Positions 93-8,274 of a stretch of DNA of 64,000 bases are shown in pieces (the first letter of the stretch is position 1; the number at the start of each line of letters is the position of its first letter). Source of the DNA: Holdemania massiliensis AP2. Its GTDB lineage: Bacteria; Bacillota_I; Bacilli_A; Erysipelotrichales; Erysipelotrichaceae. The notes beneath the pieces were generated by a model. It did not search any database. It worked only from the letters and a program-made list of their open reading frames with translations, and was not told the DNA's origin. The position numbers and the translations under genes are program-made. The stretch is from positions 1,572,856-1,636,855 of the forward strand of contig NZ_HE998567.1 in assembly GCF_000327285.1 (NCBI RefSeq), read 5' to 3'.

Positions 93-872
93 TCAGCATC
101 CCTCGCTGGATTTCGTGGAATTTGTTGCTTTCTCTTTGCGGCGGACTTCGCGCATCCCTTTCAGAATTTCACTTCTTGCCTGACGGGCCTGCTCCATCGT
201 GGCTTGAGGAATCCCGGCCAAAGGATAAGCCAGCCCCAGCTGTTCATATTTACTTATGCCCATTGTATGGTAGGCCAGAACATCAACTGCTTTTACGTTA
301 TGCAGCGAACCGAGGAATTCTCCCAGCGCAAACAGCTGCGCCGGCGGATTGATTTCCTCATTGATATAAACATGCCGAATCCAGACCGGAATTTGCTTAA
401 CATCCAAATAGCGGGCAAAAGCAAGAATGCGGGCATTGTCCTGTCCTGTCAGCCAGCGATGACACTCGGGATCGATCTGCTTGAGATCCAGAAGGACAAG
501 ATCCGTGACAGACAAGAGAGCATCCACCCCTTCCGGATGCTCAGGATCAAACAAAATTCCTGATGTATCCAGACACGTATGAATGCCGGCCTGCTTGGCC
601 GCCGCAAACAATTCCCTGACAAACGCAGTCTGCCCTAACGGTTCGCCGCCGGTCACGGTAATGCCGCCGCCGCGGTAAAACGCTTCGTTGCGCTTGTACG
701 TCTGAAGAATTTCTTCCGGGCTCATCCATTGGCCGCCCTCAGCCCGCCAGGTATCCGGATTATGGCAATACCGGCAGCGCATCGGACAGCCCTGAACAAA
801 CACAACCAGCCGAACGCCCGGTCCATCAACGGTGCCGAAGCTTTCCAGCGAATGAATCCGTCCTTCGCTCAT
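93..872 (-). CDS. pflA: Pyruvate formate-lyase activating enzyme (radical SAM)
   Basis: This 259-aa protein is a glycyl-radical-enzyme activase. It uses a [4Fe-4S] cluster and S-adenosylmethionine to abstract hydrogen from the glycine of PFL. The cluster motif CxxxCxxC is seen as C29-PMR-C33-RY-C36, and a GGEP motif follows at about residue 95. Length and order match the PFL-activase family. It starts 6 nt after the stop of the separate glycyl-radical-domain gene, so it is the last gene of the pfl operon. Its substrate here should be the free 80-aa domain rather than a full-length PFL. Confidence 0.93.
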   Translation of the reverse strand: MSEGRIHSLESFGTVDGPGVRLVVFVQGCPMRCRYCHNPDTWRAEGGQWMSPEEILQTYKRNEAFYRGGGITVTGGEPLGQTAFVRELFAAAKQAGIHTCLDTSGILFDPEHPEGVDALLSVTDLVLLDLKQIDPECHRWLTGQDNARILAFARYLDVKQIPVWIRHVYINEEINPPAQLFALGEFLGSLHNVKAVDVLAYHTMGISKYEQLGLAYPLAGIPQATMEQARQARSEILKGMREVRRKEKATNSTKSSEGC

Positions 873-878
873 AGACCG

Positions 879-1121
879 TTAAATCTGTTGATGGAAGGTT
901 CGCGAAATGACTTCATCCTGCTGCGCCTTCGTCAGCTTATTGAAGTTAACCGCATAACCGCTGACCCGCACCGTCAGCTGCGGATATTTTTCCGGATGCG
1001 CTTGGGCATCCAGCAGCGTTTCCCGGTTGAAAACGTTCACGTTTAAATGATGGCCGCCTTTTTCTGTATATCCGTCCAAAAGCGCTACCAGGTTGTCAAT
1101 CTGTTGATCCATCGTGCTCAT
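879..1121 (-). CDS. Free-standing PFL glycyl-radical domain (GrcA-like)
   Basis: The 80-aa product aligns with the last ~80 residues of ordinary [16 protein letters not shown], a [16 protein letters not shown] segment holding the radical glycine (Gly55), and a C-terminal ISRTF. It has its own strong ribosome binding site (AAAGGAGG, about 7 nt before ATG). In most PFLs this segment is covalently part of the enzyme. Here the upstream 685-aa core stops just before it, so the catalytic unit probably assembles from two polypeptides, as YfiD/GrcA can do when it replaces a damaged C-terminus. GrcA itself is a spare part beside an intact PFL, whereas here the separate domain appears to be the only functional copy in the locus. 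Confidence 0.9.
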
Positions 1122-1135
1122 ATTCGTTTCCTCCT

Positions 1136-1375
1136 TTATTCCTCGTCCCGATCCAGCCCTGACATCAGGGTCGGCGTTTTACAGGCGAGATTTTGTTTTT
1201 CACAATCCAGACAGCCCAGCGTTTCCACTTCTTTCACCAGGCCCTCATCACTTTTATCAATCTTCTCCAGCCGGACGTTCTGATCATCAACGCTGACGTT
1301 GACATGGCCGACTCCTGCGGCAAAAGAACGATCCAGCTGAGCGATCAAATCATCGATCAGCTGTTCCTGTTTCAT
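1136..1375 (-). CDS. Degenerate, cysteine-bearing paralogue of the glycyl-radical domain
   Basis: This 79-aa protein is unlike named families at first sight, but it aligns with the neighbouring 80-aa domain with an offset of one residue and no gaps. [10 protein letters not shown] matches [17 protein letters not shown] matches HHLNVNV, and Gly54 aligns with radical Gly55. The conserved RVSGYA loop is replaced by a segment containing C55, C58 and C65 (LGCLDC, then six residues, then C). It starts 3 nt after the stop of the PFL core and is followed closely by the true glycyl domain, so it is co-translated with both. A role as metal- or redox-binding partner, assembly factor or stand-in for the radical domain is inference. 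Homology rests on my own alignment. Confidence 0.7.
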
Positions 1376-1378
1376 GAC

Positions 1379-3436
1379 TTATTCGTTGCTTTCGATTTCA
1401 TCCAGTTCCAGCTCCACTTCCAAATCGCCGGTCGTGATGATTTCTTTGCCTAACGCATTCGGAATGATCGAGAAGGTATTGGAAATTCCGTCCTGGGCAT
1501 CCGCAAACGGCAGTTTGGAAACCGAAGCCAGTGAAGCGACGGCGCCATGACTGTCGCGCTTGTGCATTGGATTGGCGCCCGGGGCAAACGGTTCGCCCTT
1601 CTTGCGGCCATCCGGAGTGGAACCGGTGTTTTTGCCATAGACGACATTGGAAGTAATCGTTAAGATCGATGTGGTCGGAATGCCGCCGCGATAGGTATGA
1701 TTGCCCTTGATATAAGTCATGAAAGTGTGGACAATTTCGCTGGCAATCGCATCGACGCGGTCATCATCATTGCCGTATTTCGGGAAATCGCCCTCCACTT
1801 CATAATCGACGACAATTCCCTGTTCATTGCGGATTGCCTTGACTTTGGCGTATTTGATCGCAGAAAGGGAATCCGCGACCACAGACAAACCGGCGATGCC
1901 CGTCGCGAACCAGCGCTTGACGTCCTTATCATGCAAAGCCATCTGCAGCTTTTCGTAGCAATATTTATCATGCATATAATGAATGATGTTCAGCGCGTTG
2001 ACATAAACCTGCGCCAGCCATTTCATCATCTGCTTGTATTTGTGCATCACCTCATCGTAATCAAGATACTCGGAAGTAATCGGACGGTATTCCGGACCAA
2101 CCTGCTTGCCGGAAATCTCATCGACGCCGCCGTTGATCGCATAAAGCAGACACTTGGCCAAGTTGGCGCGGGCGCCGAAGAACTGCATCTCCTTGCCGAT
2201 GCGCATCGACGAAACGCAGCAGGCAATTGTATAGTCGTCGCCATGGGTCACGCGCATCAGATCGTCGTTCTCATATTGAATCGACGAGGACTCAATCGAG
2301 GTCTTAGCGCAGAATCGCTTGAAGTTCTGCGGCAGACGAGTTGACCACAGCACCGTCAGATTCGGTTCCGGCGCCGTGCCCAGATTCTTTAATGTATGGA
2401 GGTAACGGAAGGAAGACTTGGTGACCAGATGGCGGCCGTCGATGCCGACCCCGCCGATCGATTCAGTAACCCAGGTTGGATCCCCGGAGAACAGTTCGTT
2501 GTATTCCGGAGTCCGGGCAAATTTTACCAGCCGCAGCTTCATGATGAAATGGTCGATGAATTCCTGAATTTCTGCTTCGGTGTACACACCGTTGTCCAAA
2601 TCCCGCTGGGCATAGATATCAATGAACGTCGAAGTCCGGCCCAGTGACATCGCCGCTCCGTTTTGTTCCTTGACAGCTGCCAGATAGCCGAAATACAGCC
2701 ACTGAATCGCTTCCTTTGTATCCTTAGCCGGACGGGAAATATCATAGCCATAGATTTCGCCAAGCTTTTTCAGCTCTTGCAAAGCGCGGATCTGTTCTGA
2801 GAGTTCTTCGCGTTCACGGATGACGTTGGAATACATGATGACCCGCGTGGAATCCTTCTGATGCTGCTTATCCTGAATCAGACGGTCAACCCCATACAGG
2901 GCAATCCGGCGGTAGTCGCCGACAATCCGTCCGCGGCCGTAAGCATCCGGCAGACCGGTGATGACATGGCTGGAACGGCAGGCCCGCATTTCCGGTGTAT
3001 AAGCGTCGAATACTCCGGCATTATGTGTTTTGCGGTGCACGGTGAAGAAATCCACAACTTCCGGATCGACTTCATACCCGTTGTCTTTGCAGGCTTTCTC
3101 GGCCATTCGGATGCCGCCGTAAGGCTGCAGGGAACGTTTAAACGGTTTGTCAGTCTGAAAACCGACGATCTTTTCAAGATCGGAATTCAGATAACCGGGA
3201 CCATGTGAGGTGATCGTCGAGATGATCTTGGTGTCCATATCAAGCACGCCGCCGGCTTCACGTTCTTGACGGCTCAGCTCCATCACCTGATCCCACAGTT
3301 TCAGCGTCGCCTCACTCGGCCCTGCCAAAAATGAATCATCGCCGTCGTATGGGGTGTAGTTCTTCTGAATGAAGTCTCGGACATTGATCTCGCGGGACCA
3401 GACGCCCTCGACAAATCCCTTGTAGCACTCTTCCAT
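1379..3436 (-). CDS. pflB: Pyruvate formate-lyase core, lacking the glycyl-radical domain
   Basis: PFL converts pyruvate and CoA to acetyl-CoA and formate. The 685-aa product carries the PFL barrel with the catalytic cysteine pair in [11 protein letters not shown] (about C406-C407), followed by the conserved [11 protein letters not shown]. It ends after [12 protein letters not shown] with a short acidic tail. Normal PFLs continue there for another ~80 residues with the glycyl-radical domain, making ~740-760 aa. That domain is encoded two genes downstream. The start has an AGGAGG site 5 nt upstream. The break is not a recent frameshift, because each downstream piece has its own start codon and spacing. 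The gene leads a four-gene operon with the two small proteins and the activase. Confidence 0.93.
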
Positions 3437-3470
3437 AGTTTCCTCCTATAACTTTTAGTGGGTAAGCTTT

Positions 3471-3488
3471 CCTGTCAAGACTGACAGG
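3471..3488. promoter_or_regulatory. Dyad in the pfl leader
   Basis: CCTGTCA and TGACAGG form a perfect 7-bp inverted repeat with a 4-nt spacer, about 35 nt upstream of the pflB start. There is no T-run on the pfl strand. It could be an operator or an mRNA hairpin in the leader; which one cannot be told from sequence. Confidence 0.4.
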
Positions 3489-3549
3489 ACCGTTTTATTT
3501 TACCTTGTTTGAGAATAAAAAAATAGAGGTCAGAAACATCATTTTCCAT

Positions 3550-3563
3550 TGTAATCGGTTACA
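3550..3563. promoter_or_regulatory. CcpA cre-type site upstream of pfl
   Basis: TGTAATCGGTTACA matches the catabolite-responsive element consensus TGWAANCGNTNWCA at every position and is near-palindromic. It lies ~115 bp upstream of pflB and ~280 bp upstream of the divergent LacI-type regulator. In Firmicutes CcpA often controls pfl through such sites; activation versus repression here is not known. The rest of the 3489-3774 interval shows no gene I can support. Confidence 0.65.
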
Positions 3564-3774
3564 AGTTTGAAAATGTTGTTAGATCATTCTAACACTAATA
3601 GATTATCGAAATAGATCATCCCTGTCAAGCCAGACACTTCCGAATTCAAACATCATTTTCAGCTTTTTCCCGGCGTTTGGCTGGCAGAGCAAAACCTCAG
3701 AAAAGCAACGCTTCAATTCTGCCGTATCCATCTTTTTCCCTTGCTGAAACCGCAGATTGCCGAAGCGGCCTGCC

Positions 3775-3804
3775 TTGAATCTCAAGCAGCAGTTATGCTA
3801 TGAT
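3775..3804 (+). promoter_or_regulatory. Promoter of the LacI-type regulator
   Basis: TTGAAT at 3775-3780, an 18-nt spacer and TATGAT at 3799-3804 with an extended TGC. Transcription would begin near 3811. That rules out the upstream in-frame ATG at 3757 and supports the start at 3829. Confidence 0.7.
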
Positions 3805-3828
3805 GAAACGCAGAAGGAAGACGACAGT

Positions 3829-4812
3829 ATGACGAAAATAACGATGAAGGAAATCGCTGAATTTGCCGGAGTGGGAAAAAGCACGGTATCCCGCTACTTT
3901 AACGGCGGTTATGTTAAAGAAGAAACACGCTTGCGGATCGAGGCTATCTGCCGTGAATATCACTATCAGCCCAATTCCGTAGCCAAGACACTGAAAGCCC
4001 GCCATTCCTATCAGATCGGAGTCATCACCCCCTCGATTGATTCCCGCACCAGCGCGCGGGTGCTGACAGCGCTGGATGAACAGCTGCGATTGTCCGGCTA
4101 TACCCCGCTTCTGATCAATACCAATCATAATCAAATCCGGGAGCTGACCAGTCTGGAAAGCTTCAGCCGGATGAATGTCGAAGGCATTATTCTTTTAGCC
4201 ACGCAGATCACCCCGGAGCATGAGCGGATCATTCATAAGCTGCGGCTGCCGGTCATCGTACTGGCTCAGGAAATGGCCGGAGCGGTGACCATCACGCTCG
4301 ATGACTATACGGCAGGCTATGACATCGGCCGGAAGATCGGAACAGCACGGCATCGTGCCGTCTGTCTGCTGGGCGTCAGTGAAAACGATAAAGCGGTCGG
4401 AAGGACGCGGAAACAGGGAATCCTTGACGGTCTGAAGGAAACCGGCATCACCCAGGTTGATTTTCTGGAAACGGATTTCAGCTTTGCAGCTTCCCGCCAG
4501 GTTGTGCGGGCCTATCTTAAGGATCATCGTCCGGATTGTATGATCTGTGCAACCGATAATCTAGCTATGGCGGCCTTTAAAGAACTGCACACGGCTGGTT
4601 ATCGTATACCGCAGGATGTGTCGCTGACCGGCTTTGGCGGTTATGATGTATGTGAAGTGCTGACGCCTTCGTTAACCACCATCCGGTTTGATTACGAACG
4701 AGAAGGCCGAACGGCGGCCGAGCTGATTCTGGAGATGATCGCCGGCAATCCGGTTGAATCCGTAAAAATCGGCTATACTTTTATTGATGGGGAAAGCGTT
4801 ATCGAACGATGA
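3829..4812 (+). CDS. scrR: LacI-family sucrose operon regulator (ScrR-like)
   Basis: The 327-aa protein has the LacI layout: an N-terminal helix-turn-helix (MKEIAEFAGVGKSTVSRYFNGG) with hinge region to about residue 55, then a periplasmic-binding-like effector domain ending in the usual TTIRFDYEREG segment. The chosen start follows AGGAAG at a good distance and lies downstream of the predicted promoter; an upstream in-frame ATG would lie before the transcription start. It immediately precedes the sucrose PTS operon on the same strand. An operator-like palindrome sits at the scrA transcription start, so it most likely represses scrAB-K until a sucrose-derived ligand binds. The effector is inferred. 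Confidence 0.85.
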   Translation: MTKITMKEIAEFAGVGKSTVSRYFNGGYVKEETRLRIEAICREYHYQPNSVAKTLKARHSYQIGVITPSIDSRTSARVLTALDEQLRLSGYTPLLINTNHNQIRELTSLESFSRMNVEGIILLATQITPEHERIIHKLRLPVIVLAQEMAGAVTITLDDYTAGYDIGRKIGTARHRAVCLLGVSENDKAVGRTRKQGILDGLKETGITQVDFLETDFSFAASRQVVRAYLKDHRPDCMICATDNLAMAAFKELHTAGYRIPQDVSLTGFGGYDVCEVLTPSLTTIRFDYEREGRTAAELILEMIAGNPVESVKIGYTFIDGESVIER

Positions 4813-5014
4813 TATCGCTTTTTTATTTCTCTTTCTTTAGTTGCAGATAAGGGCAGCAAACGCTGACGGCTTCTTCAGCTTGCCCTGCGCTGTTGTTCTG
4901 ACAAGGAGCTCCAGCTCTTCTGACTTTTTAAGCTTTATGCAGATATTATTTTTCAAAAAAGAAGCGGCAATGCAGAAAAAATCAAAAAATATGGAATCGA
5001 TCCCACATTTTGTG

Positions 5015-5064
5015 TTGACATTTTCCAGAATGAAGCTTATATTAAATGTGGGAACGGTACCACA
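5015..5064 (+). promoter_or_regulatory. scrA promoter with LacI-type operator
   Basis: TTGACA (5015-5020), 17-nt spacer, TATATT (5038-5043). Directly downstream, at 5047-5064, is an imperfect palindrome TGTGGGAACGGTACCACA with outer arms TGTGG/CCACA and a central CG, as usual for LacI-family operators. It covers the expected start of transcription, so repressor binding would block initiation. The stretch 4813-5014 holds no supported gene. Confidence 0.8.
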
Positions 5065-5077
5065 AGGAGGAAGAACC

Positions 5078-6967
5078 ATGAATTATCCATCTATTGCCGC
5101 TCAGATTGTCGCCGCTGTCGGCGGACGGGAAAACCTGAGCCACGTCATGCATTGTGCAACACGCCTGCGTCTGACCTGTCTGGACGAATCCAAAATCAAC
5201 GCCGATGCGATCGCGGACATCGAAGGTGTCAAAGGCGTTTTCAGCGCCAAGGGACAGTTTCAGATCATCTTCGGTTCCGGCACCGTCAATCAGGTCTGCG
5301 ACGAAGTGCTGAAGCTGACCGGAAATCAGCCGGTTGTGCAGCCGCCGAAAGAAGCACAGGGCAACGTCGTCAATTGCTTCATCAAGATGCTCAGCGACAT
5401 CTTCGTACCAATCATTCCGGCGATTGTGGCCGGCGGCTTATTGATGGGAATCAATAATATCTTTACGGCGGAGGGGTTGTTTGTCAGCGGCAAAACGCTG
5501 ATTGACCTCTATCCGCAGTTTGCTGACTTAGCCGGCATGATCAATCTGTTTTCCAATGCTGCCTTCACTTTCCTGCCGGTCTTAATCGGTTTCAGTGCAA
5601 CCAAGAAGTTTGGCGGCAATCCTTATCTGGGCGCGGTTTTAGGGATGATCATGGTTCATCCGGATCTGATGAACGCGTACAGCTATGGTACCGGCGCGGT
5701 TGTTCCAACGTGGAACTTATTCGGACTGTCCATCGAAGCCGTCGGCTATCAGGGAACGGTGCTGCCGGTACTGGTCATGTCGTTTTTCCTGGCCAAACTG
5801 GAAACCCAGCTGCATAAAATCACACCGAGCTGGCTGGACAATCTGACGACGCCGTTAATTTCGATTCTGGTCTGCGGCTTCATCACCTTCCTGGCCGTAG
5901 GGCCGATGCTGCGCACAGCCGGCAATCTGTTGGCCTTCGGCATCTCCTGGCTGTATCATTCACTCGGCTTCATCGGCGGCGGTTTATTCGGTCTATTCTA
6001 TGCCCCGATCGTTTTGACCGGCATGCATCACAGCTTCATTGCGATTGAAACACAGCTGTTAGCGGAAGCGGCGGTTACCGGCGGAAGCTTTATCTTCGTC
6101 ACCGCTTCGATGAACAACGTTGCCCAGGGCGCCGCCGTACTCGCAGTTTTGGCAACGACCAAGGACACTAAGTTAAAAAGCTTATGCTCCGCCTCTGGAA
6201 TCAGCGCCCTGCTTGGAATTACGGAACCGGCGATGTTCGGCGTCAACCTGAAATTGAAGACTCCGTTCTATGCGGCGATCATCGGTTCAGCTGTAGGCTC
6301 AGCCTATGTTGCCTTCCATCATGTCTTAGCCGTTGCTTTGGGAGCTGCCGGATTACCGGGCTTCATCTCCATCCGTCCAGCAGATTGGCCGCACTTTGCG
6401 ATTGGTTTGGCTTTAAGCATGATCACCGCCTTTGTTTTAACCTGGATCCTGGCTAAGAAGCCGCAGTCTTCACAAGCTGGAAAGATCAAGGCCAAGGCTG
6501 AACTGAACAACATCGATGACCAAACCTGCGTGGCTCCGGCTGAAGGGACAGTCAAACCCATCGAAGAATCCACCGACAGGACATTCCGTGAAAAATTAAT
6601 GGGCGATGGCTTTGTCCTGTTCCCAGAGAACGGACAAGTCTGTTCACCGATCAACGCTGTTGTCAAGTTCATCTTTCCGACCCGGCATGCGATCGGCCTT
6701 GTGCGTGAGGACGGCGTTGAGATGCTGATCCACATGGGGATCAATACGGTTTCTCTAAACGGCGCTCCGTTTGAAATCTTTGTAGAGGAAGGCCAGAACG
6801 TCCAGGCTGGTCAGCCGTTAGCCAGAATGGATCTTCAACAGATCCGCCAGGCCGGCTGTTCAGAGGAAATCTGCTGCCTGTTTACTTCCCCGACAGCCTT
6901 CAGCTGGACTGTTCAGGGTGCCGTCGCTCAGGCCCAGCCAATCCTTACGTTAGGAGAAAAACAATGA
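5078..6967 (+). CDS. scrA: Sucrose-specific PTS transporter, EIIBCA
   Basis: The 629-aa permease imports and phosphorylates sucrose. Domains in order are EIIB (residues ~1-85, phosphorylated Cys26 in HCATRLR), membrane EIIC (~110-465, about ten hydrophobic segments) and EIIA of the glucose/Crr type (~490-629, with HAIGL and the active histidine in LIHMGI). A fused EIIA makes it independent of a separate IIA. The start at 5078 has AAGGAGG upstream and lies after the promoter; the reading frame extends further upstream but that part is untranscribed. Its stop overlaps the scrB start by 4 nt. Sucrose specificity is inferred from the scrB and scrK neighbours. Confidence 0.92.
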   Translation: MNYPSIAAQIVAAVGGRENLSHVMHCATRLRLTCLDESKINADAIADIEGVKGVFSAKGQFQIIFGSGTVNQVCDEVLKLTGNQPVVQPPKEAQGNVVNCFIKMLSDIFVPIIPAIVAGGLLMGINNIFTAEGLFVSGKTLIDLYPQFADLAGMINLFSNAAFTFLPVLIGFSATKKFGGNPYLGAVLGMIMVHPDLMNAYSYGTGAVVPTWNLFGLSIEAVGYQGTVLPVLVMSFFLAKLETQLHKITPSWLDNLTTPLISILVCGFITFLAVGPMLRTAGNLLAFGISWLYHSLGFIGGGLFGLFYAPIVLTGMHHSFIAIETQLLAEAAVTGGSFIFVTASMNNVAQGAAVLAVLATTKDTKLKSLCSASGISALLGITEPAMFGVNLKLKTPFYAAIIGSAVGSAYVAFHHVLAVALGAAGLPGFISIRPADWPHFAIGLALSMITAFVLTWILAKKPQSSQAGKIKAKAELNNIDDQTCVAPAEGTVKPIEESTDRTFREKLMGDGFVLFPENGQVCSPINAVVKFIFPTRHAIGLVREDGVEMLIHMGINTVSLNGAPFEIFVEEGQNVQAGQPLARMDLQQIRQAGCSEEICCLFTSPTAFSWTVQGAVAQAQPILTLGEKQ

Positions 6968-8274
6968 ACGATTATCGCTTAACCTCGCACTTGGCGCCAA
7001 AACGCGGTTGGCTGAACGATCCCAACGGTCTATGCGTTCATCAGGGAGTCATTCATATCTTCTATCAAGCTGATCCGGACAGCTTAACCGGAAAGCGCAA
7101 AGCCTGGGGACATTTTACAACGACGGACTTTGTGCATTACACCGACTGCGGATTAGCCATCGAACCGACTGAAGCTTTTGAACAGCACGGCGCTTATTCC
7201 GGCAGCGCGCTCTCCGTGGGGGATCAGCTGCATCTGTTTTACACCGGCAATGTCAAAGAACCGGGAGATCATGATTTCATCCGCTCCGGCCGCCAGCACA
7301 ATACGATCCATGCGCTCAGCGACGGAAAAACGGTTGATCATAAGCACGTTGTTTTAAGCAATGCGGACTACCCGGATTTCTGTTCCTGTCATGTCCGTGA
7401 TCCCAAGGTCAACAAAATCGCGGAGGGCTACGAAATGGTCTTAGGCGCCCGAACCTTGGATGATGAGGGCTGTGTCCTGCGTTATACCAGTATGGATCTT
7501 GAACATTGGCAGTTAAACGCGGTACTGCGTTCGCAAAACAAGATGGGATATATGTGGGAATGTCCTGATCTGCTTCATTTTGATGACGTTGATGTTTTGC
7601 TTTGCTGCCCGCAGGGATTGACCCGGCAGGGATATCACTATGAAAATGTCTATGACAACGGATATTTCCTGATCCAACAGGATCAGGCTAAGACTTACCG
7701 CACGCTGGATTATGGATTTGACTTCTATGCCCCGCAAACCTTTGAAGACAGCCGGGGACGGAGGATTCTGATCGGCTGGATGGGACTGCCGGATACCGAC
7801 TATACGATCCCAACAAAGACCTGGATGCATGCGCTGACCTTGCCGCGGCAGCTGCGTTATGAAGAAGGCCAGCTGAAACAGCGGGTGATCGACGAGCTGC
7901 AGCCCACCCATCTATTGACGGCAAAGACTACACAGGCACAGGCTCCGCAGGCCTGCGTGCTGAAAATGCAGCCGCAGAAGTCGCTGACCCTGGCCATCGA
8001 TACGCTGAAAATTCAGTATGCGGATGGATTGTTTACCCTAGATTGTTCAGCCTGCGGCGAAGGCCGCACCCAACGGCATGTCGAGCTGCCGAACCTGGAT
8101 ACTTTAGAGCTGTACCTGGATGTTTCCAGTGTGGAGATTTTCTTGAACGACGGCCAGTTCAGTCTTACTTCACGCTGCTTCTTTGACACAGCCATCCGTA
8201 CGATCCAGGCTGATTGTGAATTTGATCTGTATGATGCAGTGGCGATTGAAATAGAAAGCAGGGATATTCAATGA
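6964..8274 (+). CDS. scrB: Sucrose-6-phosphate hydrolase (GH32)
   Basis: This 436-aa glycoside hydrolase family 32 enzyme splits sucrose-6-phosphate into glucose-6-phosphate and fructose. Visible signatures are the nucleophile motif WLNDPNG near the N-terminus, the RDPKV motif and the acid/base motif WECPD. A beta-sandwich C-terminal region follows from about residue 310. There is no signal peptide, in keeping with a cytoplasmic substrate produced by the PTS. It is translationally coupled to scrA (ATGA overlap) and to scrK (ATGA overlap). Confidence 0.93.
   Translation: MNDYRLTSHLAPKRGWLNDPNGLCVHQGVIHIFYQADPDSLTGKRKAWGHFTTTDFVHYTDCGLAIEPTEAFEQHGAYSGSALSVGDQLHLFYTGNVKEPGDHDFIRSGRQHNTIHALSDGKTVDHKHVVLSNADYPDFCSCHVRDPKVNKIAEGYEMVLGARTLDDEGCVLRYTSMDLEHWQLNAVLRSQNKMGYMWECPDLLHFDDVDVLLCCPQGLTRQGYHYENVYDNGYFLIQQDQAKTYRTLDYGFDFYAPQTFEDSRGRRILIGWMGLPDTDYTIPTKTWMHALTLPRQLRYEEGQLKQRVIDELQPTHLLTAKTTQAQAPQACVLKMQPQKSLTLAIDTLKIQYADGLFTLDCSACGEGRTQRHVELPNLDTLELYLDVSSVEIFLNDGQFSLTSRCFFDTAIRTIQADCEFDLYDAVAIEIESRDIQ

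Follow-up and report, generated by a model that had tools for sequence, protein, structure and literature searches.

The split PFL locus

The window, namely the whole stretch of 64,000 nucleotides of Holdemania massiliensis AP2 analysed here, carries on its minus strand four closely spaced genes in the order PFL core, a 79-aa protein, GrcA3, and PFL-activating enzyme. PFL is a central fermentation enzyme in gut anaerobes, and oxygen destroys it through its glycyl radical. The features at the locus are as follows.

1379..3436, minus strand: PFL catalytic core, 685 aa, which stops before the glycyl domain (TIGR01255, PF02901)
about 2216-2221, minus strand: active-site C406-C407 of the PFL core
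1136..1375, minus strand: 79-aa middle protein, third piece of the split PFL operon (ORF; about 30 genomes with a homologue in the equivalent position; dN/dS 0.086)
1268..1372, minus strand: residues 2-36 of the middle protein, half glycyl-radical domain with a helix and the GHVNVSV strand, a probable docking handle (hhalign, 95%, E 3e-8; profile matches to GrcA3 and PFL C-termini)
1139..1213, minus strand: residues 55-79 of the middle protein, cysteine tail C58-x6-C65-x-x-P68 with an acidic end; C55 not conserved (29-sequence alignment; tail profile; module also fused to cores)
879..1121, minus strand: GrcA3, free-standing glycyl-radical subunit, 80 aa, with the RVSGYA loop intact (NF038360, 168.1 bits, cut-off 158)
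93..872, minus strand: PFL-activating enzyme, radical SAM (TIGR02493, 274.1 bits, cut-off 231.75)

The core scores 1102.8 bits against TIGR01255 with the match ending at position 662 of 744, and the glycyl domain is thus absent from it. Since the genome has one full-PFL match (the core) and one GrcA3 match, the split enzyme is the PFL of the Holdemania massiliensis genome. A first-pass annotation of this DNA had described a 79-aa reading frame sandwiched between two catalytic pieces, and this arrangement is indeed found (1136-1375, between the core at 1379-3436 and the glycyl domain at 879-1121). The gene order is the same in H. filiformis and Holdemania sp., where the small protein is 86-87% identical. 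Upstream of the operon and on the opposite strand, positions 3757-8274 of the window hold a LacI-type regulator, a PTS sugar transporter and a sucrose-hydrolase-like gene, as read from the reading frames.

The split PFL itself is not new to annotators, GrcA3 being already a named NCBIfam family (NF038360), while the name GrcA3 appears in no paper that we found in the open-licence literature. The pairing of a truncated core with a free-standing subunit of GrcA3 type occurs widely across the class, in at least families f1, f2, f5, f7, f8, f10, f18, f19 and f21 (L037-L063, L095-L175), and one genome (G483) has two GrcA3-type subunits in separate places (contigs C42 and C44).

The middle gene and its distribution

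Judged by its substitution pattern, the 79-aa gene is real and under purifying selection: comparison of the window with H. filiformis gives dN/dS values of 0.086 (small protein), 0.017 (core) and 0.033 (GrcA3), and the most constrained part of the small protein is the Cys tail (0.028, from few sites). A profile of the middle protein matched 29 of the 316 genomes of the order with E below 1e-10, 10 of them in the window's family and 19 in a second one; one further genome, in a third family, was found with a middle protein by profile search. Wherever the contig permitted the check, the middle gene lies between the truncated core and GrcA3, and the spacing from core to middle gene ranges from -17 to +20 nt. 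The protein is absent from most split PFLs compared. It has no match in Pfam or NCBIfam, including the GrcA models, and no homologues were found in the viral contigs, plasmids or solved structures searched.

A pseudogene was considered and rejected on dN/dS (0.07-0.09). Also rejected was a core-middle fusion produced by stop-codon readthrough, the two genes being out of frame in most other genomes.

Half of a glycyl-radical domain

The first 35 or so residues of the middle protein share, by sequence comparison, a common origin with the front half of the glycyl-radical domain. When 15 middle proteins were aligned with nine GrcA3 sequences by hhalign, the probability was 95% with an E value of 3e-8, over columns 2-36 only, and BLASTP against the neighbouring radical domain gave 46% identity over 26 aa. 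GrcA3 and PFL C-termini from dozens of genomes were likewise picked up by a profile built from middle proteins only, which they match at about positions 2-41. In E. coli PFL numbering (via the GrcA3 alignment), the homologous stretch runs from residue 683 through the strand HLNVNV; the sequence of the first helix and strand is kept in the small protein, and the radical loop and last helix are missing. Beyond about residue 36, profile-profile comparison detected no significant similarity to the glycyl domain, and the RVSGYA loop with the radical Gly is absent from all middle-protein homologues. In our view, the half domain probably serves as a docking handle by which the tail stays close to the core.

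These results bear out the first-pass view of a third piece that derives from a glycyl domain, carries Cys and lacks the radical loop. Of the two outcomes named there as telling against it, neither was seen: similarity to the glycyl domain is present at the level of sequence, and two of the three Cys are conserved. The similarity to the neighbouring radical domain that had been noted there is real over residues 2-36 or so, but the alignment is not gap-free over the full length as had been claimed; indeed, MAFFT places an 8-residue gap at the loop. The pairing of Gly54 with the radical Gly55 was consequently not upheld, as it falls outside the significant region and needs that gap. To call the domain degenerate is also misleading: one half is kept, and the other is a conserved dithiol tail under strong selection.

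A cysteine tail in trans and in cis

In place of the radical loop and last helix, the middle proteins have a tail with the motif C-x(4-6)-C-x-x-P. L14, D15, H24, C65 and P68 are invariant in 29 distinct homologues. C65 is thus Cys in all 29, and the C58 column is Cys in 27, with a Cys one residue away in the remaining two. Of the three Cys residues (C55, C58 and C65) pointed out in the first-pass annotation, two are therefore conserved; C55 occurs only in the Holdemania-like subgroup, if a C-x-C variant in L092 is set aside. What is conserved, across some 30 genomes from three families, is the Cys pair with its Pro, not the CxxC...C motif that had been described. A three-Cys metal motif was rejected as a candidate because C55 is not conserved.

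The tail is also found outside the middle protein. In genomes that have none, several cores themselves end in the tail motif, as in DLDCSNGACGTPTLFEGLDAE (L037), DLCDCTQSACQIPNLTEGIEKE (L043), LDCGPNEACKIPNLEIGLDDE (L119) and DDCAQNSACRIPNLTVGIDE (L105). A profile made from the tails of middle proteins only matched all nine cis-tailed cores (two near-copies included) with E values from 2.7e-8 to 0.026, the weakest being L053, while no other core scored better than 7.8 and no shuffled sequence better than 1.4. On this sequence evidence, the conserved unit is a dithiol tail that occurs either in cis, on the core, or in trans, on the middle protein. One genome (L044) has a core with its own C-x-C end (FDCGCDK) plus a separate middle protein.

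In two AlphaFold models of the core-middle readthrough fusion, made from a shallow alignment of the window and related loci, the mean pLDDT was about 64 and fell to about 25-58 over the middle protein; in these low-confidence models, the tail is predicted to be disordered (pLDDT about 25).

Many split PFLs lack a Cys tail altogether (classes A and D), and class A cores end at about ALGKDD. Cores of family f5, whose genomes are small, consist of a single contig and may be Spiroplasma-like, have reading frames open only under genetic code 4 and carry a C-terminal extension, e.g., GDFKVSGEIPEDAKIK, with no Cys motif (L095, L097, L098, L101, L103, L152, L156-L159 and L161). Every tail-bearing core has C429, as do 66% of the class A split cores; the intact PFLs and f5 cores in the comparison all lack it.

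Interconversion of the cis and trans forms

In a tree of cores built without the tail region, the tail-bearing cores, whether cis or trans, all fall into a single clade (support 96/96), whose deepest members are cis. The trans genomes are not monophyletic (AU p 1.3e-4), and the cis-type L037 and L053 are nested within the trans group. No case of tail loss was seen inside the tail-bearing clade among the genomes sampled. As far as the core phylogeny tells, the cis and trans forms have interconverted without loss of the tail. The simplest reading would be an ancestral cis tail, followed by insertion of a duplicated half glycyl domain between core and tail and by at least one return to cis.

Discussion

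We suggest, at a little under an even chance, that the 79-aa protein is an accessory third subunit of the split PFL, which docks on the core through its half domain and whose dithiol tail serves the active site or the radical. The N-terminal half would have arisen by duplication of the front half of the glycyl-radical domain, and its docking site on the core is probably the place of that domain or close to it. The C-terminal half would be a flexible tail with the conserved Cys pair, which in relatives sits covalently on the core. Since those cis relatives keep the tail without the half domain, the tail appears to be the working part and the half domain probably its handle. By analogy with RNR, the tail might act as a thiol arm for the active-site Cys406/Cys407 or for the glycyl radical; possible tasks are reduction or protection of Cys406/407, safe quenching of the radical, and shielding of the site while GrcA3 is undocked. 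It is from these sequence patterns that we infer the docking site, the thiol chemistry and the purpose. More tentatively, the tail may be a swinging dithiol arm of a glycyl radical enzyme that evolution has moved to and fro between the core itself (cis) and a half-domain handle (trans).

Among known proteins, GrcA/YfiD (GrcA3, NF038360) is likewise a small free-standing relative of the PFL C-terminal domain encoded beside PFL genes, and shares the first helix and the HxNVxV strand. Unlike GrcA, however, the 79-aa protein lacks the radical loop, the Gly and the last helix, has the Cys tail instead, and is homologous to the glycyl domain not over its full length but over columns 2-36 only. Class I and II RNR have a C-terminal redox Cys pair, which the catalytic chain either carries itself or, as in the split NrdJa+b, leaves to a second, small chain; in class I and monomeric class II enzymes, the tail bearing the pair is flexible (PMC5704485). 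RNR and the split PFL are different enzymes, but the C-terminal Cys pair in cis or on a separate chain is common to both, and a comparable flexibility of the 79-aa protein is suggested by the low-confidence models. When solved structures were searched with the tail profile, no RNR chain was matched; the likeness is therefore one of analogy, not of homology. The RNR in the Holdemania massiliensis genome ends in EECESCSA and, judged by this tail, is presumably class I.

A serious rival, if an unlikely one, is a placeholder or redox switch, in which the half domain would fill the empty glycyl site in competition with GrcA3 and the Cys pair would only sense redox and control binding. The half domain does correspond to the docking part of the glycyl domain; the cis-tailed relatives, however, keep the tail without any half domain, and the tail must then have a task for which no placeholder is needed. 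The placeholder or chaperone role offered in the first-pass annotation is accordingly weakened in its pure form by the same tail being fused to the core in related genomes. As for a role outside catalysis and redox chemistry, as assembly factor or chaperone of the core or GrcA3, the gene lies between the two pieces and is tightly coupled to them, but most split PFLs do without a middle protein, and the conserved Cys pair and its fusion to cores would be left unexplained; we regard this role as very improbable. It is hardly credible that the protein is what decay has left of the ancestral PFL C-terminal domain, or that readthrough of the core stop codon joins it to the core. In the window, L001 and L002, a single codon separates the core stop from the middle start and the frame is shared, but most other genomes have the two out of frame, and both the low dN/dS (0.07-0.09) and the conservation of motifs across families speak against these ideas.

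It is quite unlikely, furthermore, that the Cys pair provides metal or Fe-S ligands, perhaps joined by those of a second copy on the other half of the PFL dimer, in a cluster-bearing accessory subunit like that of benzylsuccinate synthase. Cys pairs are able to bind metal, the Holdemania group has three Cys, and BSS and HPAD offer a precedent in their small accessory subunits with [4Fe-4S] clusters (PMC12590467). Indeed, BSS-beta, BSS-gamma and the HPAD accessory subunits are, like the 79-aa protein, small extra subunits (7-10 kDa) of glycyl radical enzymes with conserved Cys (PMC12590467). They hold their [4Fe-4S] cluster in a HiPIP-like fold with four Cys ligands, whereas the 79-aa protein originates from a glycyl domain and matches no HiPIP-like family in Pfam or NCBIfam. 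Having just two conserved Cys, it is less likely to be a cluster-bearing subunit like BSS-beta. Also, no Cys specific to tail-bearing cores could complete a site, C429 being shared with 66% of class A cores.

The thiol-arm reading has difficulties of its own: no per-turnover need of PFL for a reductant is known, and the many split PFLs without a Cys tail also count against it. If it holds, PFL would gain a tail for redox chemistry or radical quenching of a kind that has not so far been described for it, and the combination of a split enzyme, a radical subunit that can be exchanged and a dithiol arm would represent an unrecognised way to protect, quench or restart PFL. The literature on GrcA3, split PFL and Holdemania PFL, as far as it is open-licence (many journals are missing from it), holds no description of the middle protein or the Cys tail, in agreement with the first-pass remark that no function had been described.

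PFL genes were also seen in IMG/VR contigs. Two of them (L181 and L193, 73-79 kb) carry at 3001-5010 a PFL with three in-frame TGA codons, and so probably derive from an organism or phage in which TGA encodes an amino acid. Another (L194, 110 kb) has a split PFL, with a core at 2977-5016 that has an ALGKDED-like end, followed just downstream by a free GrcA3-type subunit.
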